Assembly (NCBI GenBank): GCA_025355955.1
Contig: JANXYP010000069.1
Location: 1-47,820 of the forward strand
From: Chloroflexota bacterium
GTDB lineage: Bacteria > Chloroflexota > Chloroflexia > QHBQ01
Direction of reading: 5' to 3'
Length of the DNA: 47,820 bases
Positions 9,149-31,362 of the stretch are shown here, piece after piece. Made by a program: the position numbers and the translations under genes. Under the pieces are notes generated by a model. That model saw only the letters and a program-made list of their open reading frames with translations. It made no database searches and was not told the DNA's origin. Position 1 is the stretch's first letter. Each line of letters begins with the position of its first letter.

Positions 9149-9910
9149 TCACTCCTCACTTCTCATTGTCTTCACCCCTCCTGCGCCCGCAACAATTGCC
9201 ATTTTGGCAATGCCGACAAACAGACCGCTCTCGACTACGCCGCTGATCAGCTTGATCTCTCGCTCTAGCGCGGTCGGATCGGCAATCGCACCAAAGTGGC
9301 AGTCGAGGATATAGTTGCCGCTGTCGGTGCGATACGGTTCCTGGGGGTTGGCGATTGCCGTACGCAGCACAATATTGCCATGCAGCGCTTCCAACCTGGC
9401 GGCGGTGCGATGCCAGCCGAAGGGGATGACTTCGATTGGCAATGGCTGATGTTCGCCCAGCCATTCGACCACCTTGCTATCGTCGGCGACGATGACCAGC
9501 CGCTTGCTGGACAGGGCAACGATCTTCTCGCGCAGCAACGCCCCACCTCGCCCCTTGATCAAGCTCAGGTTACTGGGCAGGATCTCGTCCGCTCCGTCAA
9601 TGGTTAGGTCGAGGCTGGGTTGCTGTTCCAGGGTGGTGATGGGGATGTTCAGGCTGCGTGCCAATCGAGCGGTCTGATCGCTGGTTGGCACGCAGACGAG
9701 GCGTAGCCCCTCTTTGGCGATGCGGGCGGCCAATAGGGGCAGCAGCAGGCGAGCGGTGGTACCAGTGCCTAGTCCCAGTGCCATGCCGTCCTGTACCAGC
9801 GGGATGGCGGCGCTGACTGCTGCCTCCTTGTACCCATCTATTGTAGATTGTAGATTGTAGATTGTAGATTGGGGGGGTTGAGTATCTGCCGCCCGCTGTT
9901 CTTTACTCAT
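9149..9910 (-). CDS. rpiA: Ribose-5-phosphate isomerase A
   Basis: RpiA interconverts ribulose-5-phosphate and ribose-5-phosphate in the non-oxidative pentose phosphate pathway. The 253-residue protein carries GLGTGTTA (residues 46-53), the phosphate-binding loop. DLTIDGADEI holds the catalytic aspartates, and LIKGRGGALLREKIV has the catalytic lysine and glutamate. Residues ~15-24 (QSTIYNLQST) are encoded by a (TTGTAGA)4 heptamer tract on the opposite strand, an unusual N-terminal insertion just before the conserved first helix (YKEAAVSAAIPLV). The C-terminal MRSEE and stop are also written by heptamer-like sequence. An internal start after the tract is not obvious. It is the last gene of the minus-strand pentose phosphate cluster. 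Confidence 0.93.
   Translation of the reverse strand: MSKEQRAADTQPPQSTIYNLQSTIDGYKEAAVSAAIPLVQDGMALGLGTGTTARLLLPLLAARIAKEGLRLVCVPTSDQTARLARSLNIPITTLEQQPSLDLTIDGADEILPSNLSLIKGRGGALLREKIVALSSKRLVIVADDSKVVEWLGEHQPLPIEVIPFGWHRTAARLEALHGNIVLRTAIANPQEPYRTDSGNYILDCHFGAIADPTALEREIKLISGVVESGLFVGIAKMAIVAGAGGVKTMRSEE
9841..9871. repeat. Heptanucleotide tract (TTGTAGA)4.4 in the rpiA 5' coding region
   Basis: Four exact and one partial unit. On the rpiA coding strand it reads CAATCTA without any stop codon; on the other strand it contains TAG in every frame. Confidence 0.85.
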
Positions 9911-10047
9911 CTCTCATACCTCACCAACAATTTTGAGGGGAGCCCTCGTAGGACGCAGATTTATCGCGCCTGCGGTGAAGCGCATTATTAAGTTCTGATG
10001 CGCCTTACTCCCCCTCCTTGCCTCCCCATTTGGGGAGGGATAATTAG

Positions 10048-10161
10048 TATTACAGCCTCAGCTGGCATAAATGCGCCAGATTGGTGTATGGGCGAATCGC
10101 ATACGCCCTACCGCCTAGTGTCCAAGCTACGCTATCTTGCCCGGCAAGTGAGGCTGTAATA
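10048..10161. mobile_element. Family B MITE, intact (114 bp)
   Basis: Perfect 13-bp terminal inverted repeats TATTACAGCCTCA (10048-10060) and TGAGGCTGTAATA (10149-10161) are flanked by the direct repeat TTAG (10044-10047 and 10162-10165). The interior includes the palindrome GGGCGAATCGCATACGCCC-like core. It sits within three copies of CCTCCCCATTTGGGGAGGGATAATTA-type sequence (about 10020-10047, 10168-10196, 10199-10229) that fill the rest of the rpiA-pgl gap. It is a non-autonomous element; a truncated relative is at 45735. Confidence 0.8.
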
Positions 10162-10219
10162 TTAGGAGCCTCCCCATTTGGGAAGGATAATTAGGATCCC
10201 CCCATTTGAGGAGGGATAA

Positions 10220-10978
10220 TCAGGATACCTTTGTGGTCAGCCCGGCGGCTGCCGCCTGATCCACCAGCCAGTAGAGCTTGCCGTGTTGCGGTGCAATCAT
10301 CTGAGAGGGGTAAGTGTCAGGGTTAGGCTGGCCTTCGAGGACTTGGTGCAGCGCGTCGGCCTTGTCGGGGCCAGCGACGAGGAAGGCAACCAACGCGGCG
10401 GCGTTAATTACTGGGGCGGTCAGGGTCAGGCGCTGGGCGTTCAACTTCTCAACATAGTTGGTGGCGGCCAGCCGGTCGGTGATGTGCAGGGCGGCGGTAT
10501 GGGGGAAGAGCGACGCAGTGTGGCCGTCTGGCCCCATGCCCAGATAAATGAGGTCGAAGCGGGGCCACTCGCCATCGCGCAGCTCGAAGTGCTGCTTTAG
10601 CTCTGCCGCATACTGGTCAGCAATCTGCTCTGGGTCGCCTTGCTCGGTGAGGAAGCGGTGTACGTTCGTCGCTGGCGCGCCCACTTTGCTGATCAGCAAT
10701 GCGTTTGCCACGCCATAATTGCTGTCGGGATGGTCGGGCGGTACGCAACGCTCGTCGCCCCAGAAGAGCTGCACCTTCGTCCAGTCCACCTGCTTATCGT
10801 AAGGCGGGGCGGCCAGAAGCGCAAACATCGCCTTGGGCGTGCTGCCGCCGCTGAGGGCGACATCGAAGCGTCCATGTGTGGCAATCGCCTGCCTGGCGCT
10901 ACGGATGAACAGGTCCGTGGCTGCCTGGGCTACCGCTGCGGTATCGGGGAAAATCTCAAGCTCTACGTTGTTTGCCAT
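10220..10978 (-). CDS. pgl: 6-phosphogluconolactonase
   Basis: Pgl hydrolyses 6-phosphogluconolactone to 6-phosphogluconate in the oxidative pentose phosphate pathway. The 252-residue protein is of the DevB/SOL type: FDVALSGGSTPKAMFALLA (phosphate-binding), VQLFWGDERCVPPDHPDSNYG, FDLIYLGMGPDGHTASLFPHT (with the catalytic DGH) and VAFLVAGPDKADAL. Its ATG abuts the opcA stop (TAGATG), and GGGGAAG at the end of opcA serves as its ribosome binding site, so translation is coupled. Order zwf-opcA-pgl is the same as in cyanobacteria and actinobacteria. Confidence 0.95.
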   Translation of the reverse strand: MANNVELEIFPDTAAVAQAATDLFIRSARQAIATHGRFDVALSGGSTPKAMFALLAAPPYDKQVDWTKVQLFWGDERCVPPDHPDSNYGVANALLISKVGAPATNVHRFLTEQGDPEQIADQYAAELKQHFELRDGEWPRFDLIYLGMGPDGHTASLFPHTAALHITDRLAATNYVEKLNAQRLTLTAPVINAAALVAFLVAGPDKADALHQVLEGQPNPDTYPSQMIAPQHGKLYWLVDQAAAAGLTTKVS

Positions 10979-12223
10979 CTACTTCCCCGTTCTGCGGTTG
11001 CCGAGGCCGACCGCGATGCGGAGGGCTGCCTCATACAAGGGGTCATGGCCGAGGTTGCCCAGCGCCTCGACCAGCAGTTCATCGTTGGAACGTGCGCCGA
11101 TATGTACGGTGCGCTCAATTTTGTTCTGCCCATCCACCTCGATGCTGGTGCTGATATGCTCGGCAATCGGCGGTAGGCCGCCCTCCCAGTCGCGGCGGTT
11201 GTCCTCGCCGAAATACTTGCGGGCCAGGGTGAAAGTGCCTTTATGCCCGTCAAACTCGCCATGCAAGGTAATATCAATCACGTCACCGGGCCAAACTCCG
11301 TCGCCACGCCCGTTGAGTATATCTACCGCGATCGGCCGATCGTCACCACTGCTCATTGTCATACTGCATACCCCATCGCCGGTCTCCATCTCGATAGGCG
11401 CTTGCCAGTTCATCCGCGAGGCCAGCCAGCCGATCAGCAGCAGCGCCTGGTTGGGGTTGGCAACATCCTTGCCGCGCTTGTAGCGTACCTCCACGCTAGT
11501 CAGCCCATTGAGGAAGGGCCGCAAGTAGAGGGCATCGAAGATCTGGGCAGTGAGTTGCCGCCACGAGGTCAGGCGGATCCAGTTCAGGTCATTGGTCGCC
11601 ACCGCCGGATTATCCTTCTCGCGCAACTGCGCCAGCCTCGCCATATCCTTGACTGGACGAGGGAAGACGATCGAGTCGACGATCAGTTCGTCAGCGCTGG
11701 CAAGTAGGCTGCCGAAGGGATACTGCTGAATCTTATAATCTTCAGTCAGCGCGCCCTGCGGCCAGTTCGGCCACCACAGTACCACTGGCAGGTCGGAGAC
11801 GAGCAGGGGGATGACTGTGCCGGGCAAGTCGGCAGATGCGCTCGGCCCTTTGGCGGTAATGTTGATCTGCTCACCGCAGATTGGTCGCCCGCCACCCACT
11901 GGCAGACGGCAATGCGCCGCCAGGCTGGTCTCAATACTGTCCTGCCCATCACCTTGCTGATTGAGCAACATGATGGTGCGGCTGGGGTAATAGCTCGCCA
12001 GGCTGGCGACCGTTTCGGTCATCGCCCCCACCTTACTTTCATCGGGGGCGTAGGCGATCAGGTTCATCAGGCAGAAGCGAATCACCGCCAACCCGTTGTC
12101 GCCGCCCATGCTGGCCGCTGCCCACAAGTTAGTCAGCTCACGCTCCACCGCTCGCGCATCTACCCCCACCGGCTTGCCGCCAACGAACGTTTGTACCCGA
12201 TTCTCTTCTTCTTTGGTATCCAT
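10979..12223 (-). CDS. opcA: Glucose-6-phosphate dehydrogenase assembly/activator protein OpcA
   Basis: OpcA is an allosteric effector and assembly factor of Zwf described in cyanobacteria and present in actinobacteria. The 414-residue protein shows the family-typical stretches NLIAYAPDESKVGAMTETVA, HPSR-like SYYPSRTIMLLNQQ, and PVVLWWPNWPQG, followed by DELIVDSIVF. There is no signal peptide or membrane segment. It lies directly between zwf and pgl. The start at 12223 has only a weak Shine-Dalgarno-like GGGGGC. In cyanobacteria OpcA activity is redox-controlled through cysteines; I did not identify an equivalent cysteine pair here. Confidence 0.9.
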   Translation of the reverse strand: MDTKEEENRVQTFVGGKPVGVDARAVERELTNLWAAASMGGDNGLAVIRFCLMNLIAYAPDESKVGAMTETVASLASYYPSRTIMLLNQQGDGQDSIETSLAAHCRLPVGGGRPICGEQINITAKGPSASADLPGTVIPLLVSDLPVVLWWPNWPQGALTEDYKIQQYPFGSLLASADELIVDSIVFPRPVKDMARLAQLREKDNPAVATNDLNWIRLTSWRQLTAQIFDALYLRPFLNGLTSVEVRYKRGKDVANPNQALLLIGWLASRMNWQAPIEMETGDGVCSMTMSSGDDRPIAVDILNGRGDGVWPGDVIDITLHGEFDGHKGTFTLARKYFGEDNRRDWEGGLPPIAEHISTSIEVDGQNKIERTVHIGARSNDELLVEALGNLGHDPLYEAALRIAVGLGNRRTGK

Positions 12224-12267
12224 TTATATTTTGCCCCCTGGGTTGTCTCTATACACCGCATCAAACT

Positions 12268-12353
12268 GAAAAGAGCGAACAACGGTTCGCCCCTACGAAC
12301 CCGGCGACAGCTTATCAGCCACTTTCTCAGCACTCAGCACTTAGCACTCAGCG
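12268..12353. repeat. Family A core plus (TCAGCAC)4 heptamers between zwf and opcA
   Basis: A lone core GAGCGAACAACGGTTCGCCCCTACGAA at 12272-12298 is followed by four heptamers (CTCAGCA CTCAGCA CTTAGCA CTCAGCG, 12326-12353). The heptamers end 4 bp beyond the zwf stop codon; in the zwf direction they read GTGCTGA. Confidence 0.8.
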
Positions 12354-12357
12354 TTGG

Positions 12358-13947
12358 CTATGGCCTTCGCCAGACGCGGTCGTCGCGGGCCATCATCTGC
12401 TGGGCGGCGATTGGTCCCCAGCTTCCCGCTTCGTAGTTGGGGAACACTGGTGGTGGCAGCACCTTCCAGCCATCGAGGATGGATGTTACCAGCGTCCAGG
12501 CTGCCTCTACCTCGTCGCGGCGGGTGAACAGAGTGGAGTCGCCGATCAGGACATCAAGGATCAGCCGTTCGTAGGCATCGGCGGGTTGCACCCCGAACGC
12601 CGCGCTGTAGCGGAAGTCCATGTTTACCGAGCGCAGCCGCATCCTTGCGCTTGGCACCTTCGACTCGAACTTGAGGGTGATGCCCTCGTCGGGCTGAATC
12701 TGTAGGGCAAGGATGTTTTGCTCCAGAGCGGCAACCCCCATCTGGCGAAACAGTTGTAGCGGCACCGGCTTGAAGCGTATCGCGATTTCAGTGGCCCGCA
12801 CCGGCAGGCGCTTGCCAGTTCGCAGGTAGAATGGTACATCCTGCCAGCGCCAGTTTTCTACGAACAGCTTCATCGCCACGAAGGTGTCGGTGGTCGAGTT
12901 GGGGTTGACCTTCTGTTCCTGGCGATAGCCGACCACGTGTTCACCGTTGATGCTGCCCGGCCCGTATTGGCCGCGTACCACCCGCTCGGCCACGTCGCGG
13001 GCATCGAGTGGCTTGATTGCCCGTAGCACCTTTACCTTCTCGTCGCGGATGGCGTTGGCATCGAAGGCCACCGGAGGCTCCATCGCGGTAAGCGCCAACT
13101 GCTGCATCATGTGATTCTGCACCATATCGCGGATGGTGCCAGCACCCTCATAGTAACCGGCCCGCTCTTCCACGCCCAGGTTCTCGGCCACGGTGATCTG
13201 CACATGGTCGACATACTGGCGGTTCCAGATTGGCTCGAAGATGGTGTTGGCGAAGCGGAAGACCAGGATGTTCTGCACCGTCTCCTTACCCAGATAGTGG
13301 TCGATGCGGTAGGTTTGCTCTTCGTTGAACACCGCGCTCAGTTTGGTGTTGAGGTCGCGGGCGGTGGCGAGGTCGGTGCCGAACGGCTTCTCGATGACGA
13401 TGCGAGTCCAACCGCCACCCGCCCAGTGTTGCCGCGCCAGCCCGGCCTGGCCCAGATTGTGGATAATATCCTCGTAGGCAGTGGGCGGAGTTGCCAGATA
13501 GAAGACGCGGTTGCCGCTGGTACCCTGGGTGCGGTCGAGGTCGCCGAGCAAGGTGGCGAGCTTCTCGTAGGATTTCTCATCGCCAAAGTCGCCCTGAACG
13601 TAGTGCATCCCTTTCGCCAGGCTATTCCACACGGTGGGGTCGAGCGGCTTGCGGCGCGAGTATTGAGCGACCGTGTCATGTACATCCTGGGTGAACTGTT
13701 GGTCGGTGAGCGGCCGCCGCGCAAAACCGACTACTGAAAAGCCATTGGGTAGCAGCCGGTCGAGAGCCAGGTTATAAAGTGCGGGGATCAGCTTGCGGTG
13801 GGTGAGGTCGCCGGTCGCGCCGAAGATGACCATCACGCACGGCTCCGCCGTCCGCTGGATACCTAGCCCCTCCCACAGCGGGTTGCCCAGCGCGCTGTCA
13901 TTGATTTCGTCGAAAGATGTGTTCAACTTTTGCAGACCCCCAGTCAT
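12358..13947 (-). CDS. zwf: Glucose-6-phosphate 1-dehydrogenase
   Basis: Zwf oxidises glucose-6-phosphate to the lactone with NADP+, the entry to the oxidative pentose phosphate pathway. The 529-residue protein has the dinucleotide motif FGATGDLTHRKLIPALYNL (about residues 40-58). RIVIEKPFGTDLATA carries the conserved EKP motif, RIDHYLGKETVQN is the substrate-binding and catalytic signature, and DVPFYLRTGKRL follows. I place the start at 13947 (MTGGLQKLNTSFDE), but no Shine-Dalgarno is visible because a heptamer tract lies immediately upstream. The frame stays open through the tract to an ATG at 13995, which would add 16 residues made entirely of repeat sequence. It is followed by opcA and pgl. 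Confidence 0.93.
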   Translation of the reverse strand: MTGGLQKLNTSFDEINDSALGNPLWEGLGIQRTAEPCVMVIFGATGDLTHRKLIPALYNLALDRLLPNGFSVVGFARRPLTDQQFTQDVHDTVAQYSRRKPLDPTVWNSLAKGMHYVQGDFGDEKSYEKLATLLGDLDRTQGTSGNRVFYLATPPTAYEDIIHNLGQAGLARQHWAGGGWTRIVIEKPFGTDLATARDLNTKLSAVFNEEQTYRIDHYLGKETVQNILVFRFANTIFEPIWNRQYVDHVQITVAENLGVEERAGYYEGAGTIRDMVQNHMMQQLALTAMEPPVAFDANAIRDEKVKVLRAIKPLDARDVAERVVRGQYGPGSINGEHVVGYRQEQKVNPNSTTDTFVAMKLFVENWRWQDVPFYLRTGKRLPVRATEIAIRFKPVPLQLFRQMGVAALEQNILALQIQPDEGITLKFESKVPSARMRLRSVNMDFRYSAAFGVQPADAYERLILDVLIGDSTLFTRRDEVEAAWTLVTSILDGWKVLPPPVFPNYEAGSWGPIAAQQMMARDDRVWRRP

Positions 13948-13948
13948 A

Positions 13949-13992
13949 ATTGCAGATTGTAGATTGCAGATTGAAGATTGTAGAATGTAGAA
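13949..13992. repeat. Heptanucleotide tract (ATTGTAG-type)6 at the zwf start
   Basis: Units ATTGCAG ATTGTAG ATTGCAG ATTGAAG ATTGTAG AATGTAG run up to 1-2 bp before the chosen zwf ATG and take the place of a ribosome binding site. A palindrome GGCGCAG...CTGCGCC with CCCTACACC (14001-14033), family C-like, follows. Confidence 0.85.
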
Positions 13993-14065
13993 CATCTATA
14001 GGCGCAGGGCGCGATGAATCTGCGCCCCTACACCAACGTTCTAATTCATCACTCATCACCTATCA

Positions 14066-15037
14066 CTATTTTGTTGCGCCGGGAATCTGCTCAGGGGCGC
14101 TGCGCTGATCGGCGAGACCCTGGTCGGTCAGCACCGCGTGGCCGCCGAACTCGTTACGGAGTGCGGCGATCACCTGTGCAGAGTACGACTCATCCTGCCG
14201 CGAGTTAAAACGCGCCAGCAGGCTGAGAGTGATGACCGGCGCTGGCACACTTTCGTCAATCGCTGCCTGCACCGTCCAGCGGCCCTCGCCGGAGTCCTCC
14301 ACGTAGCCCTTGATGCCCTTGAGGTCGTCGCCGTTGGTGGAAAAAGCGCGCACCGCCAGTTCCAGCAGCCAGGAACGCACCACGCTGCCATGATTCCACA
14401 ACTCGGCGATGCCGCGCATATCCAGCCCCGCGCCGTAGTCAGGTGATTTCTTCATGATCTCGAAGCCCTCGCCGTAAGCCTGCAGCATCCCGTACTCGAT
14501 GCCGTTATGCACCATCTTGACGAAGTGGCCCGCGCCGCTGGCTCCCATGTAGCCGTAGCCCTGCTCCGGCGCGAGGGTCTTGAAAATTGGCTCCATGTGA
14601 TCGTACATCTCTTTTTCGCCACCAACCATCAGCGCGTAGCCGACGGTCAAGCCCCAGATGCCGCCACTTACGCCTGCATCCATGTAGTGGAAACCGGCGG
14701 CGGTCAGCTTCTTGGCCCGCGCCTGGGTCTCGTGGAAGTTGGAGTTGCCGCCGTCAATGATGATGTCGCCCGGCTTCAGCACGCCCATCAGTTCGTCAAT
14801 CTGATCATCCACTGGCTTGCCGTTAGGTACCATGATCCAGACTGCTTTGGGGCTATCGTGCAACTCCGATACCATGTCCTCGATGGTCTTGGTTGGCACA
14901 ATCGCGGGATGCTCCTTGGCGACTTCCTCTGTCTTCGCGTAGGTACGGTTGAAAGCGACTACCCGATGGCCGCCTTGCGCCAGCCGTACCACCATGTTGC
15001 CACCCATGCGGCCCAGGCCGATGAAACCGATTTCCAT
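14066..15037 (-). CDS. gnd: 6-phosphogluconate dehydrogenase, short (GndA-like) type
   Basis: This enzyme oxidatively decarboxylates 6-phosphogluconate to ribulose-5-phosphate. At 323 residues it belongs to the short subgroup, not the ~470-residue classical Gnd; many short forms prefer NAD+, which would matter for NADPH yield but is not determined here. Visible are GFIGLGRMGGNM (nucleotide fold, residues 4-15), IIIDGGNSNFHET, MDAGVSGGIWGL, and GHFVKMVHNGIEYGMLQAYGEG with the catalytic lysine. AAAGGAC precedes the ATG. The stop is followed at once by TGATAGG/TGATGAG heptamer-like units (14047-14067). Confidence 0.92.
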   Translation of the reverse strand: MEIGFIGLGRMGGNMVVRLAQGGHRVVAFNRTYAKTEEVAKEHPAIVPTKTIEDMVSELHDSPKAVWIMVPNGKPVDDQIDELMGVLKPGDIIIDGGNSNFHETQARAKKLTAAGFHYMDAGVSGGIWGLTVGYALMVGGEKEMYDHMEPIFKTLAPEQGYGYMGASGAGHFVKMVHNGIEYGMLQAYGEGFEIMKKSPDYGAGLDMRGIAELWNHGSVVRSWLLELAVRAFSTNGDDLKGIKGYVEDSGEGRWTVQAAIDESVPAPVITLSLLARFNSRQDESYSAQVIAALRNEFGGHAVLTDQGLADQRSAPEQIPGATK

Positions 15038-15062
15038 AATTGCTGTGTCCTTTCTTGATTAT

Positions 15063-15195
15063 GCCCCTCCCCAAAGGGTGAGGTTGGGAGGGGGAGCGCG
15101 TCGCGCTATGAAGACCCACCCCCAGCCCCTCCCGGCGGGAGGGGAGTTCCTTAATACGTTTTCACTCAGCACTCAGCACTCAGCACTCAGCACTC
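15063..15195. repeat. Two family D palindromes and (CACTCAG)4.7 heptamers between pgi and gnd
   Basis: Family D copies are at 15063-15098 (CCCCTCCCCAAAGGGTGAGG) and 15116-15147 (ACCCCCAGCCCCTCCCGG CGGGAGGGG). The heptamer tract 15163-15195 ends 1 bp beyond the pgi stop. Confidence 0.8.
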
Positions 15196-15196
15196 G

Positions 15197-16873: not shown

Positions 16874-17386
16874 AAATCCCCCGTTCTGAGTGTAGAATGT
16901 AGAATGTAGAATGTGGTTTGCGGACGGCATCTCCGCTTGCGATGGGCGTTATCGCATCTTCAGCAGGGCGGGCCACCGCCCGCCCCTACGCCTGCTACAA
17001 TCCGTTTATCCGTTTTCACAATCCGTTGGCTAACTACGCTAGGGCGGATGCAACCCGCGTATATGCCAGCACTATCGCATCTTCAGCAGGGCGGGCCACT
17101 GCCCGCCCCTACGTTGGCACTATCGCATCTTCAGCAGGGCGGACCACCGCCCGCTCCTACGCCTGCTACAATCCGTTTATCCGTTTTCACAATCCGTTGG
17201 CTAACCGCTCCAGGACGAGTGCAACCCGCCCCAATCCGTTTATCCGTTTTTACAATCCGTTGGCTAATGGGCTTGCTATTAGCACTGCTGGCACTTCAAC
17301 GTCACCCCTCACCCTACCCTCTCCCCCGGTGGGGAGAGGGGATCTTATCATGCTAAAATCAGCACTCAGCACTCAGCACTTCGCGG
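16874..17386. repeat. Intergenic repeat array between tal and pgi (family C, D and heptamers)
   Basis: A (GTAGAAT)3.5 tract lies at 16892-16917, just upstream of pgi. From 16955 to 17270 there are three copies of CAGCAGGGCGGGCCACCGCCCGCCCCTACG-type palindromes (family C), interleaved with CAATCCGTTTATCCGTTTTCACAATCCGTTGGCTAA strings. A family D hairpin (CCTCTCCCCCGGTGGGGAGAGG) lies at 17316-17342. A (TCAGCAC)3 heptamer tract (17359-17380) is 7 bp past the tal stop. No gene is supported. Confidence 0.8.
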
Positions 17387-18983: not shown

Positions 18984-19567
18984 AGCTGCTGCTCCCATTG
19001 GGCATTAGGGTGAGTACAACCCACCTCTACGCCCGCCACAATCCGTTTATCCGCTAGTCATATCCGTTGGCTAACGGCTTACGATAGTCATTTGTGCAAT
19101 TCAACGTGCGGGGCTGCGCCCCTAACCCCCGGTAACTCGGCGGCAGCAATGCCTACGATTGGCATCGCTGGCGCTTCACCTGGGCGGTCCACCGCCCGCC
19201 ACTAGGCTAGTCACAATCCGTTTATCCGTTGTTATACCAATTAGCCGAGCAGATAGTATAAATTGGGCCAGGGCGAACAACGGTTCGCCCCTACAGAAAT
19301 TATAGCGGCACCACGGCTAATTGGTATTACAATCCGTTGGCTAAATGGCTTACGATTGGCATCGCTGGCGCTTCACCTGGGCGGGCCACCGCCCGCCACT
19401 ACGCTAGTCACAATCCGTTTTTCCGTTGTTACAATCCGTTGGCTAAACAGCTTACGATTAGCATTGCTGGCGCTTCACCTGGGCGGGCCACCGCCCGCCC
19501 CTACGCCCGCAAGGGGAGAGGGAAAAGCTGATACTCAGCACTCAGCACTCAGCACTCAGCATTGCGG
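18984..19567. repeat. Repeat-filled gap between tkt and the frameshifted gene
   Basis: Contains three family C palindromes (GGGCGGTCCACCGCCCGCC at about 19179; GGGCGGGCCACCGCCCGCC at about 19380 and 19482). Several CAATCCGTTTATCCG/CAATCCGTTGGCTAA strings, the intact family A MITE (annotated separately) and a (CACTCAG)4 heptamer tract (19535-19563) are also present. The heptamers stop 4 bp past the tkt stop codon. Nothing coding is supported. Confidence 0.8.
19235..19326. mobile_element. Family A MITE, intact copy (92 bp)
   Basis: Perfect 13-bp inverted ends TACCAATTAGCCG and CGGCTAATTGGTA are flanked by TTA on both sides (19232-19234, 19327-19329), with the central palindrome GGGCGAACAACGGTTCGCCCC. 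It is the reference copy for the family. It is inserted inside family C sequence, which therefore predates it here. Confidence 0.85.
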
Positions 19568-23697: not shown

Positions 23698-24102
23698 GTG
23701 CGAAACTCAGACTACGAAGGCCAGGCCGACATTCTCGAGCTGCTCTACGATCGCTACCCGATCCGCTTGCCGCTCATCTTCATTGCCCTTGCGTTGGCAA
23801 TTATATTCCTCAGCATCCAGCTTGGCCCCGGCCCAGTGCTGATGCTGGCGGGCTGTGCGGGCGGCCTCATGTTCGTCGCAATCATCATGTTGGCCTACGG
23901 CTTCGTCCTTCTGTACGAGCGGCGGCGAAAGCTGTTGCCCCAGGTTTGCCCCTACTGCGCGGCGACTGAGAGCGACGGCACCGTCTATGTTGCCATCCAG
24001 ATGCCGGAGATTGACCGCCAGATTGTCGCCTGTAGCCGCTGTGAAATGACCTGGCGCACAGATCTGCGAAGTAGTAGGCAGAAGGTAGAGGGTGGAAGGT
24101 AG
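23698..24102 (+). CDS. Small membrane protein with C-terminal zinc ribbon
   Basis: A 134-residue protein with two closely spaced hydrophobic segments (about residues 24-42 and 47-70), giving a hairpin in the membrane. A cytosolic tail follows with CPYC (residues ~87-90) and CSRC (~114-117), a likely rubredoxin-like zinc site. Function unknown. Translation starts with GTG at 23698, preceded by AGGGGAAC. The final residues (RQKVEGGR) and the stop codon come from a GTAGAAG/GTAGAGG heptamer tract, so the original C-terminus may have been longer. It is transcribed divergently from the kinase cluster and converges on the next gene. Confidence 0.65.
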   Translation: MRNSDYEGQADILELLYDRYPIRLPLIFIALALAIIFLSIQLGPGPVLMLAGCAGGLMFVAIIMLAYGFVLLYERRRKLLPQVCPYCAATESDGTVYVAIQMPEIDRQIVACSRCEMTWRTDLRSSRQKVEGGR

Positions 24103-24115
24103 AATGGTAGAATGG
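24072..24115. repeat. Heptanucleotide tract (GTAGAAG/GTAGAGG type)
   Basis: Degenerate units AGGCAGAAGGTAGAGGGTGGAAGGTAGAATGGTAGAATGG run through the stop codon of the zinc-ribbon gene. TAG appears in successive frames on the coding strand. Confidence 0.75.
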
Positions 24116-24129: not shown

Positions 24130-25710
24130 CTAGGCTAACCCTTTTCCTTTGATCACCCGGTAGACCAATGCGGGAGCGAGGCCGTCGACCTTGTGGATTA
24201 GTTGCAGGCGATTGGGATGGGCGGCGGCGTAGCTTTCGAGCGAATTAGCGCTGCCATCGATATTGGAGGTGGCGATCAGGTAATCACCGCTTTGCAGCAC
24301 GAGATCGCGGTTGGGGTTCGCGGCGATGTCGAGAGTATGTCTGCCGCTCCATAGATAGACATCGTAAGGATCGCTGCAGACTATTACCGCAGCGGGATTG
24401 CTATGCGCTGCCACCCACAACGCTGCCTCTATATAAGTTTGGCGCTCTGGCGGAAAGTGGGAGGGCTGATTGTACTGCGCCACGTTCGCCACCAGGTTGC
24501 TACCGCCAAATACCCCCTCACCGAGGTGCTGACCCAGATTGACCCCGGCGATCAGCAGCAGCCCCAGTGCGGCGGCGCTTACCAGCCGTGGCGCAAACCG
24601 GCTCACCACATCCTTCAGCCCCCTGGCGAGGAAAAACAGCAGCATGGGCAGGATGGGCAAGGCAAAACGGGGTGCAGGCGGATAAGGCCAGACCAGCAAT
24701 ATTCCCCCGTAAATCAATACATACAGCAGCAGCAGCCGACCGACAGTGGTTTGTTCACGCAGCATACCCCAGGCAATAAACCCCAGTATCGATGTTAGTA
24801 GCAGCAAAATCACCCCGAAGATTGCTCCGCCGATTGTCGAGCCCGAGTCATGCAGCATGGTGAAGGGCAGGTCAACAAGCAGCCGTACCACGTTGAGCGT
24901 GTAACCAGCGATGTTCTGCGTGATCTGCTGGGTGATACTCAGCTGAGTGATACCCAGGTAGTTGGTGTAACCTCCGCTCCAGGGTGAGGGATTACCCAGC
25001 ACCCAGCCCAGTTGCAGCGGCAGACTGATCAGCAGCGCTAGCAGTGGCAGGAAGATCGCCTTGCGCCATGACCTCTGCCACAGCAGCCACAGCACCGCCG
25101 CCACCAGCAGCGCCAGCCCCACCGAGCGTATATAGATGGTGACATTAAGCGCGATGGCAGCGATCAGCGCCTCCCAGCCTATCGCCCGCACCGCGCTTTG
25201 ATATCGCAGCAACGCGGCACAGGCCAACACCGAACAGGGAATATACACTATCTCCGCGTTTATCTTGAAAGCGTACTCGATGATGTAGATGTTTAGCGCA
25301 TAGCTGAGGGTGACGAACAGCGCCATGCGCGTGCCGAAGTTTACGCGGACGAAGCGGTAGACGATCAGGGTGCCAATTAGATAGATGCCAGCCAGGGCCA
25401 GTTTGTAGGCAACCGGATTCTCCCAGATCAAGGCGATGGGGGTCAGTAGAGCAGGCAGGCCGATTGGATGCAGTATCTCCAGGGCTGGTTGCGGGCCACT
25501 GAAAAGGATTTTGCCCAGCCCATGGCTGAAGGCGTGGGTCAGTAGCACGTAGACCGAGTCGTCCCAGGTGTATTCCATATTGGGATCGAAGCGCAGCAGC
25601 ACCACCGCAGCAAACAGGGGCAAAAGCAGCAACAGAGGATGCGCGGTGATATATCCGCGCATCCCCGGTTTTGGTTCGCTGGCAACTACCGCTGCCTCAC
25701 TCGCTGCCAT
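24130..25710 (-). CDS. Polytopic membrane glycosyltransferase (GT39/ArnT-like)
   Basis: A 526-residue protein with about 11-13 hydrophobic segments and a soluble C-terminal part. After the first membrane helix comes MEYTWDDSVYVLLTHAF; the acidic pair in the first external loop is the catalytic hallmark of lipid-linked-sugar transferases of the PMT/ArnT superfamily. HPIGLPALLTPI and repeated LLLLYVLIYGGILLVWPYPPAPRF-like helices follow. It probably moves a sugar from a polyprenyl carrier to an envelope acceptor; the substrate is unknown. Its ATG lies 3 bp after the Rieske stop and its ribosome binding site (GAGGTG) is inside that gene, so it is translationally coupled to the suf genes, an odd partnership. 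Confidence 0.75.
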   Translation of the reverse strand: MAASEAAVVASEPKPGMRGYITAHPLLLLLPLFAAVVLLRFDPNMEYTWDDSVYVLLTHAFSHGLGKILFSGPQPALEILHPIGLPALLTPIALIWENPVAYKLALAGIYLIGTLIVYRFVRVNFGTRMALFVTLSYALNIYIIEYAFKINAEIVYIPCSVLACAALLRYQSAVRAIGWEALIAAIALNVTIYIRSVGLALLVAAVLWLLWQRSWRKAIFLPLLALLISLPLQLGWVLGNPSPWSGGYTNYLGITQLSITQQITQNIAGYTLNVVRLLVDLPFTMLHDSGSTIGGAIFGVILLLLTSILGFIAWGMLREQTTVGRLLLLYVLIYGGILLVWPYPPAPRFALPILPMLLFFLARGLKDVVSRFAPRLVSAAALGLLLIAGVNLGQHLGEGVFGGSNLVANVAQYNQPSHFPPERQTYIEAALWVAAHSNPAAVIVCSDPYDVYLWSGRHTLDIAANPNRDLVLQSGDYLIATSNIDGSANSLESYAAAHPNRLQLIHKVDGLAPALVYRVIKGKGLA

Positions 25711-25713
25711 CGC

Positions 25714-26028
25714 CTACACCTCGACGAATACTGCGCCATCCACGACCACAACGTTATAGGTACGTACCGGCTGGGTGGCGGGCAGACTGCGCGCCTTGCC
25801 AGATGCCAGGTCGAACTTCGAGCCGTGCAATGGACATTCCACCGCGCAGTCATCCTCATCCAACCAGCCCTCCGACAGCCGTGCATAGGCGTGGGAGCAG
25901 ATGTCCTCGGTGGCGTAATATCGCCCGCAGACGTGGTAGAGAGCAATCTCCTGCCCTCCCGCCTCGACTGAGCGCATCTCGTTCTCGCCCATCTCGTCTG
26001 CTTTGGCTACCTGATACCGTTCGACCAT
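25714..26028 (-). CDS. Rieske [2Fe-2S] ferredoxin-like protein
   Basis: A 104-residue Rieske-fold protein. The cluster ligands are Cys44 and His46 (CSH) and Cys65 and His68 (CPLH). The surrounding EDICSHAYARLSEGW and CAVECPLHGSKFDLASG match the small non-haem ferredoxins that accompany SufBD in many bacteria. It may supply electrons or serve as a client of the Suf machinery. It starts 15 bp after the sufD stop, with AAAAGGG upstream. A ring-hydroxylating dioxygenase ferredoxin is the alternative, but no oxygenase genes are near. Confidence 0.9.
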   Translation of the reverse strand: MVERYQVAKADEMGENEMRSVEAGGQEIALYHVCGRYYATEDICSHAYARLSEGWLDEDDCAVECPLHGSKFDLASGKARSLPATQPVRTYNVVVVDGAVFVEV

Positions 26029-26043
26029 ATTATAACCCTTTTG

Positions 26044-27366
26044 CTAACCTTCGTTGCTCCAAATATCGAACTCGCCGCTGACCCCCAGCTTGGTCTTGAT
26101 TGCCTCGATGAGATAGGCTTCCAACTCCGGTATACCCAGCTTGTTGATGACCTCGGCGAAGAAGCCCTCCACTACAATCTGCTTGGCGACTTCCTGGGGG
26201 ATGCCGCGACTCATCAGATAGAACAGCGCCTCGGCATCTACCGGGCCGAGTGAACTGGCGTGCGAACACTTGAGGATGTCGTTGGCCTTGATCTCCAGGT
26301 TCGGCACTGAGTCAGCGTGAGCGGTCTTGCTGAGGAGCAGGTTGCGGTTGGTCATGCCGCTACTGCTCAACTTACCCTCTGGCCTGACCAGGATCAGCCC
26401 CTCGAACACGCTGCGGCCGTTGTCTTCGTTGACTCCTTTATACAGCAGGTTGCTGGTGGTGCTGGCGGCGGCATGGTCTTGCACGGTGTTGTATTCAAGA
26501 TACTGGCTGCGGCGAGGGAAATAGAGGCCGGTCAGCATCGTCTCACTGCCCGCGCCACTGAGTTCAGCATCCACCTGGGTGCGGCTGATATTGCCACCCA
26601 GCCCGATATTGATCAGGTCCAGCTTGCTGCTGGGGCTGAGTACCGCCTTCTGGAAGCTGATATCATTGACATTTTCGCCCCACTGCTGCACGTTGATGTA
26701 GCGCAACCGCGCGCCCTCACCAACATAAATCTCAGCCACACCATCGTTGAATACGCTGGCCGCGCCCGACTGGCTGGCGGATACGAACGCAACCTCGCTG
26801 AACCTGTCAATCAGGATCAACACGCGGCTGAAGATTGCGCCGTCGGCATCGCTGCCGAACAGGGCGTGTAGCGGAAGCTCGACCTTTACATCCTTTGGCA
26901 CATAGAGGAACACCCCGCCAGTCCAGAACGCGGCGTTCATTGCGGTGAAGCGGTTGACGTTCGATTTTATCGCCGCGCCGAGGTGTAGCTGCACCAACTG
27001 TGGCATGGTGCGGGCTGCCTCTTCCAGCGAGGTGAAGATCACGCCTTTCGCCTTCAGTTCATCGCTGAGTTCGATCTGTCGCGCCACCGCGCCCTGCTGC
27101 ACGACTAGCCCGCTGCGCTGCTGTAGCAGCCCCTCGGTCGCAATATTGCCGCTGCTGGCAATCGGCTTCAGCCCATCGAGGTCAATCTTACGCAAGTCAA
27201 TCCGCCGCCAGCCGTCCTGGGTATGAGGCGGCCACTGCATCTGCTCGAACAGATCGAACGCGGCCAACCGCTGTTCGCGCAGCCAGGTCGGTTCGTTGCG
27301 CTGTACGCTAATCTGCTCCACCATCGCCCGGTCCAGGGTGGCGGCTTGCTGGGTTGCTGCTGTCAT
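26044..27366 (-). CDS. sufD: Fe-S cluster assembly protein SufD
   Basis: SufD is a scaffold subunit of the SufBCD complex. The 440-residue protein has the helical N-terminal region (NEPTWLREQRLAAFDLFEQMQWP), then the right-handed beta-helix core. It ends with the family-typical [35 protein letters not shown], in which the C-terminal His and the SRGI motif contribute to the SufB interface. It is shorter than SufB and lacks the SufB cysteine region. A 316-bp repeat-filled gap separates it from sufB. Confidence 0.93.
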   Translation of the reverse strand: MTAATQQAATLDRAMVEQISVQRNEPTWLREQRLAAFDLFEQMQWPPHTQDGWRRIDLRKIDLDGLKPIASSGNIATEGLLQQRSGLVVQQGAVARQIELSDELKAKGVIFTSLEEAARTMPQLVQLHLGAAIKSNVNRFTAMNAAFWTGGVFLYVPKDVKVELPLHALFGSDADGAIFSRVLILIDRFSEVAFVSASQSGAASVFNDGVAEIYVGEGARLRYINVQQWGENVNDISFQKAVLSPSSKLDLINIGLGGNISRTQVDAELSGAGSETMLTGLYFPRRSQYLEYNTVQDHAAASTTSNLLYKGVNEDNGRSVFEGLILVRPEGKLSSSGMTNRNLLLSKTAHADSVPNLEIKANDILKCSHASSLGPVDAEALFYLMSRGIPQEVAKQIVVEGFFAEVINKLGIPELEAYLIEAIKTKLGVSGEFDIWSNEG

Positions 27367-27390
27367 TCTATCTTCCCCCTAATTTGATAA

Positions 27391-27621
27391 GGCAATGCTG
27401 AGGTGACTGGTTGCAATCAGCTTTAGTGCGCTTCAGCGTTACCCCTCACCAAACCTCTCCCGCAAGGGGCGAGGCTTTTTGCTTTTACCCTTCACCAAAC
27501 CTCTCCCGCAAGGGAGAGGGGATTAAAGGCAACGATGAGGTGAATAGTTCCAATCAGCTTTAGTGCGCTTCAGCGTTACCCCTCACCAAACCTCTCCCGC
27601 AAGGGGCGAGGCTTTTTGCTT
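27391..27621. repeat. 137-bp tandem duplication containing three family D hairpins
   Basis: GGCAAYGMTGAGGTGA...CAATCAGCTTTAGTGCGCTTCAGCG followed by CCTCTCCCGCAAGGGGCGAGG and CTTTTTGCTT appears at 27391-27484 and 27528-27621. A third hairpin, CCTCTCCCGCAAGGGAGAGG, lies between (27500-27519). Hairpin plus T5 is on the plus strand, opposite to sufB-sufD transcription. Confidence 0.8.
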
Positions 27622-27622
27622 A

Positions 27623-27659
27623 CCATTGTAAAGCGGGCCAGCAATTTGCGCTGACCCGC
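27623..27659 (-). terminator. Intrinsic terminator-like hairpin after sufB
   Basis: On the minus strand GCGGGTCAGC and GCTGGCCCGC form a 10-bp stem (27633-27659) with a 7-base loop, followed by TTTACAATGG. It lies 24 bp past the sufB stop and may attenuate transcription into sufD. Confidence 0.55.
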
Positions 27660-27682
27660 CTTTGTCCGCGCAGGCTGGCTGA

Positions 27683-29092
27683 CTAGCCGACTGCGCCTTC
27701 CATCTGCAACTGGATGAGGCGGTTAAGCTCGACCGCGTACTCCATCGGCAGTTCCTTGGCGATTGGCTCGATGAAGCCGTTGACGATCATGGCGCTGGCA
27801 TCCACCTCGGACAGGCCGCGGCTCATCAGATAGAAGAGCTGCTCCTCGCCAACCTTGCTGACGGTGGCCTCGTGGCCAATGGTCACATCATCCTCGGCCA
27901 CGTCAATCACTGGGTAGGTGTCGCTCTGGCTCTCGGCATCGAGTAGCAGGGCATCACAGCGCACGTTGCTCTTGACATCGTATGCGCCGGGCAACACCTG
28001 CAGCAGGCCGCGATAGCTGGTGCGCCCGCCGCCTTTGCTCACCGACTTGCTTACCACCACGCTGCTGGTGTGCGGGGCGACGTGTACCACCTTGCCGCCT
28101 GCGTCCTGGTGCTGGCCCGCGCCCGCGAAGGCGACCGATAGGATCTCACCGCGTGCGCCCGGCTCCATCATGTAGACGCTGGGGTACTTCATGGTCAGCT
28201 TGCTGCCCAGATTGCCGTCCACCCACTCCATGGTTGCGTCGGCATAGGCGACTGCCCGCTTGGTGACGAGGTTGTAGACGTTGGGCGACCAGTTCTGGAT
28301 GGTGGTGTAGCGGCATCGTGCGCCCTTCTCCACGATAATCTCGACCACCGCGCTGTGTAGGCTGTCGCTGCTATAAGTCGGCGCGGTGCAGCCCTCCACG
28401 TAGTGGACGTAACTGCCTGGGGCGCAGATGATCAGAGTACGTTCGAACTGGCCCATGTTCTGGGTGTTGATGCGGAAGTAGGCCTGCAGCGGGATTTCCA
28501 CCTTCACGCCCTCCGGCACGTAGATGAAACTGCCGCCGCTCCACACCGCGCTGTTTAGCGCCGCAAACTTATTGTCCGCTGGCGGGATGATGGTGGCCCA
28601 ATACTTCCTGAACAGCTCAGGATAGTCGCGCAGGGCGGAGCCGGTATCGGTGAAGATGACCCCCTGGCGTTCCAGATCCTCACGCAGGTTGTGGTAGATG
28701 ACTTCGCTCTCGTACTGTGCGCCCACGCCCGCGAGGAACTTGCGCTCCGCTTCGGGGATGCCCAGGCGGTCGAAGGTGTTCTTGATGTTCTCCGGCACAT
28801 CCTCCCAGTTACGCGAGTTCTTCTCGGTGGGGCGGACGTAGTAGAAAATGTTGTTGAAGTCGAGCTGAGTGAGGTCGCCACCCCAGTTAGGCATCGGCTT
28901 TTTCTCAAAGATGTCGAGCGCCCGCAAACGGAAGCGAAGCATCCACTCCGGCTCATTCTTTATATAGCTAATCTCTTCCACGATGCTGCGGTTGAGGCCG
29001 CGCTTGCTCTTAAAGGCGTAGTTCTCCTCGCTGTCGTGGAAACCGTATGCGTACTCGGTAGGGGTATTCTGAATTACCGCACTTGAAGTCAT
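27683..29092 (-). CDS. sufB: Fe-S cluster assembly protein SufB
   Basis: SufB is the main scaffold on which Fe-S clusters are built. The 469-residue protein has [24 protein letters not shown] near the N-terminus, [35 protein letters not shown] (with the conserved cysteine), [22 protein letters not shown], and GRTSYRGLL. The ending [29 protein letters not shown] is also family-typical. The start at 29092 is preceded by GGAAGGGAG; a 32-codon extension upstream has no support. sufC is not adjacent on either side, which is unusual. Confidence 0.94.
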
Positions 29093-29176
29093 ATTTGTAC
29101 TGCTCCCTTCCTCGGATTGCCGCCCTCTTAATCCGGCGGCACAGAAATATGCTAAGGCCAAATATTGCTTACCTGT

Positions 29177-29185
29177 ATTATACCA
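29177..29185 (-). promoter_or_regulatory. Extended -10 promoter of the suf genes
   Basis: The minus strand reads TGGTATAAT (TATAAT at 29177-29182), about 85 bp before the sufB start. No good -35 is seen, consistent with an extended -10 promoter. No IscR/SufR-type operator was recognised. Confidence 0.45.
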
Positions 29186-29279
29186 CATTTAGACAAGAAA
29201 AGCTGTTTTATCTGGGGTAATTTGGGGAATTGTGGATATTTGCACAAACATCGGTTGCAACAACAGGCGCTACGCCCGC

Positions 29280-29708
29280 TTAGATCTGCTTCAGCAACTG
29301 CTCAGGGGTTAGCACCGGCACGAGACCTTTGTAGAACGCCTTGTCGCGAGTGACGATGCTGCTGATTTTATATCTGAGGGCGCAGGCAATTTGCAGGTTA
29401 TCCTCGAAGTCGGACCCTGGCAGGCTATCAGCATATTTTAGAATGGAGTAATCAACGGTGCAGATCTCCAGCGTTTTAAGGCAAGTACGAACCGCCTGCC
29501 GTGCAGCAGCTACACCTGAGTTCCTGCTTACAAGGTAGAAAACATCGGTTAGCGAGGATGCAGACATAAAGCCAGCAATGCTGCCCTTTTCTGCTGCTTG
29601 CCACACACGTTTGCTATCTCGCAATACTGCTTTGCTGGCATTTCTGTTGTTGATCGCAACATCCAAAATGATATTGGTGCCAAGGAGTACCAGAAGGATT
29701 GCGCTCAT
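29280..29708 (-). CDS. PIN-domain protein, toxin component of a type II system (VapC-like)
   Basis: A 142-residue PIN-domain protein. In PIN ribonucleases the N-terminal beta strand ends in DTN; here it reads LLGTNIILDVA, with Gly (codon GGC) at the usual Asp position, a change one base away from GAC. The other acidic region (PGSDFEDNLQIACAL) and the closing IVTRDKAFY are present, as is FMSASSLTDVFYLVSR. It follows the antitoxin gene with an ATGA overlap. Loss of the first metal ligand suggests reduced or absent nuclease activity, which would make the pair a decayed module; this is inference. Confidence 0.8.
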   Translation of the reverse strand: MSAILLVLLGTNIILDVAINNRNASKAVLRDSKRVWQAAEKGSIAGFMSASSLTDVFYLVSRNSGVAAARQAVRTCLKTLEICTVDYSILKYADSLPGSDFEDNLQIACALRYKISSIVTRDKAFYKGLVPVLTPEQLLKQI

Positions 29709-30154
29709 CCATATTTCTCCATTTTATGCTCATGTAGCCACTGTTCAACTTCCTCGTCACTGGGGCCAGGGTGTTCGGCGTTACCAACCCCGTATATCTC
29801 AGCCAGGGTATTGTGCGGCGGACGTAGCACATAGCTCTTGCGAGCGGGCTGGCGATTCTTCTCCCACTCAGCCTTCAATCGTGCCACGATTTGCTCCTGG
29901 TTCAGGTCATCCATCCACGACAAATCCTCACCTTTGTCAAGTGTGCCGTTGGCGCGTTCAGCCTCCCACCCTAGACGAATCTGGCGCATCTCCTCAGTTT
30001 CAATTGCTTTGAGACCTGGTAGGATGCTATCCTCCTCGTCCTGCTCGACCAGCGTTTCGGCCACGTCACGGATTAGGGCAGCCCGCTCGACGGGTGACCA
30101 CTCGCGGACGGCATTGACAATGCTTTCACGGTTCGCTTCGATAGTTACGTTCAT
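29705..30154 (-). CDS. Probable antitoxin partner of the PIN protein
   Basis: A 149-residue, strongly acidic protein lying upstream of, and overlapping, the PIN gene. The opening MNVTIEANRESIVNAVREWSP, followed by ALIRDVAETL, gives short strand-helix elements. The rest is charged helix (EEDSILPGLKAIETEEMRQIRLGWEAER). It is longer than typical VapB and I do not recognise a standard DNA-binding domain, so the antitoxin role is inferred from position. A perfect AAGGAGGTG lies upstream of the ATG at 30154. Confidence 0.6.
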   Translation of the reverse strand: MNVTIEANRESIVNAVREWSPVERAALIRDVAETLVEQDEEDSILPGLKAIETEEMRQIRLGWEAERANGTLDKGEDLSWMDDLNQEQIVARLKAEWEKNRQPARKSYVLRPPHNTLAEIYGVGNAEHPGPSDEEVEQWLHEHKMEKYG

Positions 30155-30182
30155 AGTGTACACCTCCTTGCTGATTACCCTA

Positions 30183-30209
30183 ATCATAGCATATAACGCA
30201 CTCGGTCAA
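30183..30209 (-). promoter_or_regulatory. Candidate promoter of the toxin-antitoxin pair
   Basis: On the minus strand TTGACC (30204-30209) is 15 bp from TATGAT (30183-30188); TTGTTG three bases further upstream gives an 18-bp spacer. It lies just ahead of the AAGGAGGTG ribosome binding site. Confidence 0.4.
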
Positions 30210-30262
30210 CAACGATCGAGGCACAGGGCAAGCGCAACCTACCTCACCAGCGCGATCTCCTT

Positions 30263-30303
30263 ATTCTACCTTCTACCTTCTACCCTTTACCTTCTACCTT
30301 CAG
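30263..30303. repeat. Heptanucleotide tract (TACCTTC)5
   Basis: ATTCTACCTTCTACCTTC-type units fill the gap between the antitoxin promoter and the APH stop (44 bp away). In the APH direction they read GTAGAAG, with TAG in all frames. Confidence 0.8.
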
Positions 30304-30347
30304 CTTACATTATGCAATTCCCAGACCGCTGAAGGCCGTAATCCGTG

Positions 30348-31247
30348 TCATGAGCCGTGTGCGTGATCGGCGAGAACTTCATCAATCGTGCAGCGGGCGT
30401 TGCTGACACCAACCGGGTTAGTATCCAGGTAGTACGGAATGAAGATCAGCGCTTGAGATAGCGCGTGGCCGCGACTTCGCGCCCAGGTTGCGTCATCAGC
30501 TGCTAGCGCCGTGCGGAAGGCGGCCCGGCTCTCGCCGGAGAACAGGCCCCATGCGATCATCAAGTCGCAGGCGGGGTCGCCCACGCCCAGACCCCCGAAG
30601 TCTATGACGGCGCGCAAGCGGCCTCGTTCGACCAGCAGGTTCCCAGGTAGCAGGTCTCCGTGGAACCAGACAGGCGCACGATCCCAATCGGGTGCCTGAA
30701 GGGCTGCTTCCCACACCGCTGTCACTGCATCGGTGTCTATTACGCCGTGCAGGGCTGCGATCGCGGCGCGGGTGGACGTGTCGCGCAGGGCTAGCGGCAC
30801 GCTGCGCCCAGCGGTCGGGCCGCCCGTGGGATCGATGCGCTGCAAGACGGCGATGAAGCGCGCCAGCTCCGTCGCCGCCTGGCATGGATCGGCGATGCGC
30901 TCAATGGTCGCGCTCTCGCCTTCGAGCCACTGGTAGATGGACCAATGCCAGGGGTAGCCCTCGCCGGGTGTTCCCTTCGCCAGCGGGACGGGGATGGCAA
31001 GCGGTAGGAGCGGGGCAAGTCGTGGCAGCCAGTGGTGTTCCTTATCAACTTGCCCGGTAGCCCAGTGGATGCGGGGTAGTCGCACCGCCATGTCGTCGCC
31101 GAGCCGATAGATGGCATTGTCGGTGCCAGCGGAGCGGACCGGCTCGATGGGAAGGTCAGCCCACTGCGGGAACTGCGCCGCAAGCAACCGACCCACGAGC
31201 GCTACGTCGGTATCCACCTCATCATTGTGCATTTTACCAGCAGGCAT
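30348..31247 (-). CDS. Aminoglycoside phosphotransferase-family kinase
   Basis: A 299-residue protein of the APH/choline-kinase-like fold. WFHGDLLPGNLLVERGRLRAVIDFGG is the Brenner box with the catalytic Asp of HGDLxPGN and the metal-binding IDFG. YPWHWSIYQWLEGE and GVGDPACDLMIAW are also typical. This subgroup is common in genomes without proven resistance; natural substrates range from aminoglycosides to other small hydroxyl compounds. The start at 31247 is chosen because AAGGAG lies 6 bases upstream. It is directly downstream of an ABC-F gene, and both families include antibiotic-protection members. Confidence 0.85.
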   Translation of the reverse strand: MPAGKMHNDEVDTDVALVGRLLAAQFPQWADLPIEPVRSAGTDNAIYRLGDDMAVRLPRIHWATGQVDKEHHWLPRLAPLLPLAIPVPLAKGTPGEGYPWHWSIYQWLEGESATIERIADPCQAATELARFIAVLQRIDPTGGPTAGRSVPLALRDTSTRAAIAALHGVIDTDAVTAVWEAALQAPDWDRAPVWFHGDLLPGNLLVERGRLRAVIDFGGLGVGDPACDLMIAWGLFSGESRAAFRTALAADDATWARSRGHALSQALIFIPYYLDTNPVGVSNARCTIDEVLADHAHGS

Positions 31248-31286
31248 GGTCATCTCCTTAACATCCATCTTTATTGAGAGTTGGCA

Positions 31287-31362
31287 ACCAGGGCGAGCGC
31301 TGCCCGCCCCTACCGCAGCGATCCCCCTTATTCTACCCTCTACCCTCTACCCTCTACCATCA
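31287..31362. repeat. Family C core and (TACCCTC)4 heptamers at the ABC-F 3' end
   Basis: AGGGCGAGCGCTGCCCGCCCCTACCG is a family C-like palindrome at 31290-31315. TTCTACCCTCTACCCTCTACCCTCTACC (31331-31359) is a heptamer tract that contains the ABC-F stop codon; on that strand it reads GTAGAGG. Confidence 0.8.

Follow-up and report, generated by a model that had tools for sequence, protein, structure and literature searches.

Do the heptanucleotide tandem repeats that border genes in a 47,820-nucleotide contig of a Chloroflexota bacterium (JANXYP010000069.1, called here the window, that is, the whole stretch analysed) act on translation, or do they reflect how the DNA between genes is formed and replaced? 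The initial annotation of the window described thirteen such tracts around rpiA, zwf, gnd, pgi, tal, tkt and a few other genes, and proposed that they serve as three-frame stop cassettes or translational boundaries, or that selection keeps them only where genes stay unbroken. All thirteen tracts could be read in the sequence, and in 13/13 the G-rich strand runs away from the gene. We argue that the tracts, whether single arrays or paired as the two arms of an inverted repeat, form the edges of spacer DNA that is quickly replaced and are not translational stop cassettes, with coding sequence bounding a filler of G-first polarity. We hold this reading with about even confidence.

The window is contig C221 of the genome referred to as G000, an assembly of 5.15 Mb in 420 contigs that is 84% complete. 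Judged by the gnd protein, the named relatives closest to it are distant and mostly Chloroflexota, with no other member of its family among the relatives listed. Statistics for G000 rest on 1.18 Mb of the assembly, in which many contigs were picked for CAGCACT arrays; this raises array density and leaves orientation unaffected. Sequence was also sampled from G082, a relative of G000 (0.53 Mb), from its congener G024 (0.05 Mb) and from G087 (0.14 Mb). Gene calls came from a codon-pair model built for this analysis; their stops are more certain than their starts. An exact array contains at least three perfect copies of its unit, and its orientation is given by the strand on which G outnumbers C in the unit. 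Window tracts were checked with Tandem Repeats Finder (TRF) and by direct reading.

The period of seven is a property of the whole G000 sample, which holds 146 exact arrays of period 7, 39 of period 4 and between 0 and 8 for periods 5, 6 and 8–12. The G082 sample holds 61 exact heptamer arrays. Eight-base arrays (GATGAGGT, GGTGAGGC) occupy the same stop-side site in the same G-rich sense orientation; they were found at G082:C1 108284, at the apt junction of G083 (locus L261) and in the census of G087, which has 12 exact period-8 arrays.

Arrays crowd against gene ends and are oriented there. Of the 107 spacer arrays in G000, 56 are no more than 15 bp from a stop, compared to 9.1 expected if each were uniformly placed in its own spacer. 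Where the array begins 0–15 bp after the stop and leaves the stop codon outside, the G-rich strand points outward in 36 cases and inward in none. The ratio is 21:1 for arrays overlapping the stop, although these are partly forced outward because an open reading frame (ORF) entering the stop-bearing strand ends there. Arrays within 40 bp of a start are likewise outward, and hence C-rich in the sense direction, by 21:1. When arrays in G000 are defined more loosely, the ratio becomes 72:3 near stops and 50:1 near starts. Exact arrays in G082 give 7:1 after the stop, 10:2 overlapping it and 11:2 near the start. A background skew is too slight to account for 36:0, since array-free sequence after stops in G000 has a G content of 0.28 and a C content of 0.24. 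The gene-edge orientation rule is therefore real and extends to other genomes. The genome scan called for in the initial annotation thus found neither a 50:50 orientation nor equal density away from gene ends. The claim that orientation is always outward stands close to genes only, the preference being reversed at 101–300 bp from the gene end (1:20 and 3:26).

In most G000 units the G-rich strand alone carries a stop codon, one in each unit, which is what had suggested a role in translation. As stop-overlapping arrays are partly forced, independence from stop codons was judged on arrays lying past the stop and on units that are stopless on both strands. These units were GCAGATT, GCAAGTT and GCTGGGT, with AGGGGAC, GGGTACA and GTTGGGG in addition in G082. 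With the window excluded, the stopless units of the two genomes point outward by 9:1 at stops and 12:2 at starts (21:3 pooled), so that orientation does not depend on the stop codons of the unit. Moreover, most stop-side arrays begin past the native stop. Arrays inside genes behave as open frames demand. In G000, all 31 of 31 are C-rich, and thus stop-free, in sense; in G082, whose common units are stopless, five are G-rich and four are C-rich. The proposal that tracts persist only where genes stay unbroken fits these counts, and the stop-cassette function is contradicted by the stopless units, which follow the same orientation rule.

In G082, most edge arrays are one half of a larger structure. 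For 21 of 26, the spacer also contains an inverted partner, and two complementary arms forming a stem are the usual state there; in G000 only 11 of 74 edge arrays are paired in this way, and shuffled spacers gave none. A common G082 spacer consists of the stop codon, a near-perfect heptamer hairpin, a few bases and the ATG, many of these hairpins having computed folding energies of −40 to −116 kcal/mol. Across three genomes, pairs of the same unit no more than 400 bp apart are arranged head-in in 11 cases, head-out in 0 and directly in 5. Palindromes are not confined to heptamers. A long inverted repeat is present in 137 of 254 G082 spacers of 30–350 bp (0 in shuffles), and the non-heptamer palindromes are G-first by 63:6 in tandem spacers and by 20:2 in convergent ones. 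Many of them start with GTAGGG and resemble GTAG-type repetitive extragenic palindromes (REPs). Because a G-first palindrome reads alike on both strands, its G-rich strand runs outward from both neighbouring genes.

Comparison of congeners shows that the sites are conserved while their contents change. At junctions between orthologous genes, hairpins are present in both G082 and G024 in 15 cases, in one only in 4+1 and in neither in 11 (Fisher p=0.0002); the junctions were chosen for G082 arrays, so the comparison has meaning only when conditioned on G082. At the shared sites the arms are mostly unrelated, with few arm pairs that align. Whole units are swapped between flanks 87–94% identical (AATGTTG/AGGGCTG, AGGGGAC/ATTGCAG and AGGGGAC/GTTGGGG), and elsewhere a heptamer hairpin faces a plain palindrome (Table 1). 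The breakpoint of a swap can fall within the stop codon, as in ccT|AGGGGAC versus ccT|GATGCC and taT|AATGTTG versus taT|GATAGGG, so that the filler completes the stop. Empty states also exist: the rpiA junction of G083 and G084 consists of the stop, 12 bp and the ATG, and G009 has a 6-bp spacer at 233563. That related genomes keep such structures at one site while swapping unrelated units appears to be new.

Table 1. Heptamer tracts of the window (G000) and sites at which the congeners G082 and G024 carry different spacer contents.
Genome	Position	Strand	Feature	Place or remark	Basis
G000	9145..9165	−	degenerate heptamers, sense GAAGTGAGGAGTGATTG	rpiA 3′ end	read directly; too imperfect for TRF
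G000	9840..9871	+	(ATTGTAG)4.6	rpiA 5′ side; G-rich strand on +, outward from minus-strand gene	TRF
G000	12326..12352	−	(GCTGAGT)3.9	zwf 3′ end, stop + 5 bp	TRF
G000	13949..13991	+	6-unit mixed GTAGATT/GCAGATT array	zwf 5′ side	TRF
G000	14046..14067	−	(GTGATGA)3.1	gnd 3′ end, overlaps stop codon	TRF
G000	15163..15195	−	(GTGCTGA)4.7	pgi 3′ end, stop + 1 bp	TRF
G000	16891..16914	+	(TGTAGAA)3.4	pgi 5′ side, 17 bp upstream of called start	TRF
G000	17359..17380	−	(GTGCTGA)3.1	tal 3′ end, stop + 6 bp	TRF
G000	19533..19561	−	(GCTGAGT)4.1	tkt 3′ end, stop + 6 bp	TRF
G000	24071..24112	+	imperfect GTAGAAG array	zinc-ribbon gene 3′ end, spans stop codon	TRF, 77% matches
G000	30264..30301	−	(GGTAGAA)5.4	APH-like gene 3′ side, stop + 46 bp	TRF
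G000	31332..31358	−	(GGGTAGA)3.9	ABC-F gene 3′ end, overlaps last codons and stop	TRF
G000	35424..35440	+	about 2.3 units CAATCTA in sense (CAATCTACAATC), weak	IMPase gene 5′ side	read directly; not in TRF
G000	39709..39752	+	AACTCAA in sense, stop-free	within 38679–41102 gene	TRF
G000	40033..40107	+	two adjoining arrays (CTGAGGA, GAGTGCT), stop-free in sense	within 38679–41102 gene	TRF
G000	42662..42695	+	(GATTGTA)4.9, translated LQSAICNLQS	within 41563–43944 gene	TRF
G082/G024	233563		unit swap AATGTTG/AGGGCTG	flanks 94 and 93% identical
G082/G024	31742		unit swap AGGGGAC/ATTGCAG
G082/G024	32838		unit swap AGGGGAC/GTTGGGG
G082/G024	62840		unit swap TTGGGGG/GGGAGTC
G082/G024	164128		unit swap AGGGGAC/GGAGTCG
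G082/G024	155546, 177587, 178046		heptamer hairpin in one congener, plain palindrome in the other

In the window itself, TRF lists 11 of the 13 tracts, including the imperfect one of the zinc-ribbon gene; the two outside its list are the weak ones at the rpiA 3′ end and upstream of the IMPase gene. The APH tract is outward as originally described, at 46 bp from the stop instead of the 44 bp then given. The ORF list reads through the rpiA 5′ array as STIYNLQSTI. The arrays inside the 38679–41102 and 41563–43944 genes are absent from the initial annotation and have no stop in the sense direction, as they must within an open frame. The second of these genes, which is glycosyltransferase-like, also carries a 30-bp unit (GCATCACTCCCCTCCCACCGGGAGGGGTCC) about four times in frame at 41762–41879; it encodes DPSRREGSDA and is a REP-like palindrome translated as protein. 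Dense REP-like palindromes and direct repeats (GGGCGAACAACGGTTCGCCC, ATCCGTTTATCCGTTTTCACAATCCGTTGGCTAA, CTCCCCTCCCGCCGGGAGGGG) fill the spacers 10000–10230, 16950–17260 and 33257–33357, and these repeats turn up again in other sampled G000 spacers. Heptamer arrays follow rpiA in genomes of two families, at 9149 in the window and at G082:C1 33576, with different units; given the array density, this is probably a coincidence.

How could such a pattern arise? A process acting locally on the DNA, either insertion or the formation of repeats, may keep filling the gap between coding sequences with short-period arrays and palindromes, the 5′ arm of the filler being G- or purine-rich on either strand. 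Flanking coding sequence would confine the filler to the gap, so that arrays would end flush with the stop or fall a few bases short of the next start region, and the array itself would often complete the stop as T|AG, T|GA or T|AA. With a G-rich 5′ arm on either strand and confinement to the gap, the G-rich strand would point outward from either gene. We infer that the filler is near-neutral and that the one-armed arrays of G000 belong to the same kind as the paired filler. Several observations weigh against this explanation. In G000, most edge arrays have a single arm, non-heptamer palindromes show no clear polarity (tandem 30:22) and stop-side G arrays co-occur only weakly with start-side C arrays (13/72 versus 36/331 tandem spacers, p=0.11). 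Palindrome geometry is thus an incomplete explanation in G000, and the mostly one-armed arrays weaken it as the sole cause of polarity. Hairpin sites are shared less clearly between G009 and G082, with hairpins in both genomes in 5 cases, in one only in 8 and in neither in 7 (p=0.37). Neither a mobile-element signature nor a responsible enzyme was found, and selection for RNA hairpins would likewise be expected to conserve hairpin sites while their sequence changes.

That last alternative supposes that inverted arrays act in the mRNA between cistrons, in processing, 3′-end protection or attenuation, position and fold being kept while the sequence drifts or is swapped. The strong folding energies are compatible with it, as is the conservation of hairpin sites between congeners whose arms are unrelated. 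However, stems often begin at or inside the stop codon, where, judging from the established footprint of the ribosome, a terminating ribosome would melt them. The one-armed arrays of G000 have no partner to fold with, hairpins can be missing at a congener's site (the 6-bp spacer of G009, the 12-bp spacers of G083 and G084), and convergent spacers also hold them. We regard RNA selection as possible, if somewhat unlikely. A translational boundary, in which the G-rich strand would supply three-frame stops 3′ of a gene while the 5′ orientation stays open so that translation is unbroken, is very improbable. The stops confined to the G-rich strand and the stop-free arrays within G000 genes speak for it; however, AGGGGAC and GGGTACA, stopless on both strands, are still G-first after the stop in G082, most stop-side arrays lie downstream of a native stop, and unit swaps at one site do not keep the stop content.

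Mobility of REP-like elements moved by a Y1 (RAYT) transposase, the heptamer arrays being expanded arms, would account for the GTAG-type palindromes that share the polarity of the arrays and lie in similar spacers; the ends of GTAG REPs are also known to provide neighbouring genes with a TAG stop (PMC3733652). No match to the Y1 transposase model PF01797 was found in the array-rich genomes G000 (only 84% complete), G082 and G083, which counts against Y1/RAYT transposition; arrays at different sites share no common core, and their loops differ. We consider this origin decidedly unlikely. We give hardly any credence to strand-specific structures on the outward strand, for example the G-quadruplexes put forward for GGGAATC and GGGGA(C/T)T. 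Quadruplex-forming units of Xanthomonas and Nostoc do obey the same rule (PMC4692102), and some G082 units contain G-runs (AGGGGAC, GTTGGGG). The commonest G000 units, GCTGAGT, GAGTTTT, GTAGATT and GCAGATT, contain no two adjacent Gs and yet are oriented in the same way, so that quadruplexes do not explain the rule in G000. Finally, a dedicated, undescribed process might remove and rebuild the whole stretch from stop to next start with unrelated short-period units, the G-rich strand growing 5′ to 3′ outward from each gene as if exposed DNA ends were extended with G-rich repeats and then joined. The unit would be arbitrary, and the site, polarity and period (7, sometimes 8) would be conserved. 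We put this forward tentatively, as an unlikely version of events.

The distribution of heptamers offers a way to seek the machinery behind a replaced spacer. Of 158 genomes of the class, 51 contain matches to the degenerate four-unit pattern GNNGADT; counts run from none to more than 1000 and vary strongly even within one genus (0 in G005, 872 in G082). Heptamer abundance ranging from 0 to hundreds within a genus (G005 and G009 versus G082 and G084) is a natural comparison for the responsible gene. DRT10 is a telomerase-like reverse transcriptase that makes tandem repeats (PMC12632851). Counts of the reverse transcriptase model PF00078, which is not specific for DRT10, do not follow array abundance, and array-rich G079 and G083 have none; a telomerase-like reverse-transcriptase origin of the arrays is speculation. 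Two long adjoining reverse-transcriptase frames (607 and 572 amino acids) lie at G000:C342:933-4120.

Among known systems, the TAACTGA repeats of Beggiatoaceae (MacGregor 2015) are intergenic, give three-frame stops on one strand and take the stop-free orientation within ORFs (PMC4679880). The three-frame stop property pointed out in the initial annotation does hold for most G000 units, but it had already been noted for TAACTGA. The Beggiatoaceae have one main unit, and its stop-bearing strand lies mostly in sense before starts, the reverse of the start-side rule found here, where arrays are C-rich in sense. GTAG-tagged REPs have been reported in Chloroflexi, and the TAG stop of a neighbouring gene is often provided by their GTAG end (PMC3733652). 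They resemble the G082 structures as spacer palindromes with the same G-first polarity. Their short fixed family sequence, 5–13 bp stems, GTAG tag and transposase association are missing from the heptamer arrays, which comprise many unrelated units, and it is the plain GTAGGG palindromes of G082 that resemble them. The (GATAGRA)n satellites of Chloroflexus aurantiacus, in the same phylum as G000, are described as a single heptamer repeat family (PMC6749651).

Closer to our case, cyanobacterial short tandemly repeated repetitive sequences stand alongside the heptamers of the P6b stem of the trnL intron in Nostoc and Calothrix. The latter fall into class I (TDNGATT) and class II (NNTGAGT), one class repeatedly replacing the other (PMC4476775). 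The commonest G000 unit, GCTGAGT, fits class II. Heptamer arms build a stem in P6b, as they commonly do in G082 and mostly do not in G000, and in both systems units are replaced at one site; P6b, however, is a single intron locus, whereas gene-edge spacers are affected genome-wide here. The initial annotation knew of no orientation rule for heptamers, but the rule is not new, as Rehm et al. (2015) reported it for intergenic heptamers near gene edges, GGGAATC in Xanthomonas and GGGGA(C/T)T in Nostoc PCC 7120 (PMC4692102). There, the G-rich strand is antisense within 50 bp upstream of ORFs and sense within 50 bp after stops, overlap with the stop included; the preference reverses with distance, and Xanthomonas has 70–75 convergent inverted pairs. 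G000 shares the mainly intergenic location near ORF ends, the edge orientation and the reversal farther out. It differs in having many unrelated units per genome, most of them without G-runs able to form quadruplexes. To this the present analysis adds the test with stopless units and the same-site swapping between congeners. In the open-licence literature we found no description of a test with stopless, G-run-free heptamers, nor of the exchange of unrelated heptamers at many spacers with polarity kept. The orientation rule thus now covers Proteobacteria and Cyanobacteria, as published, and Chloroflexota, and the units concerned have no sequence, stop codons or quadruplex potential in common. 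Such breadth speaks against the functional roles proposed to date and suggests that a general process or constraint acts at gene edges, and same-site swapping between close relatives makes the question testable in any sequenced strain pair.

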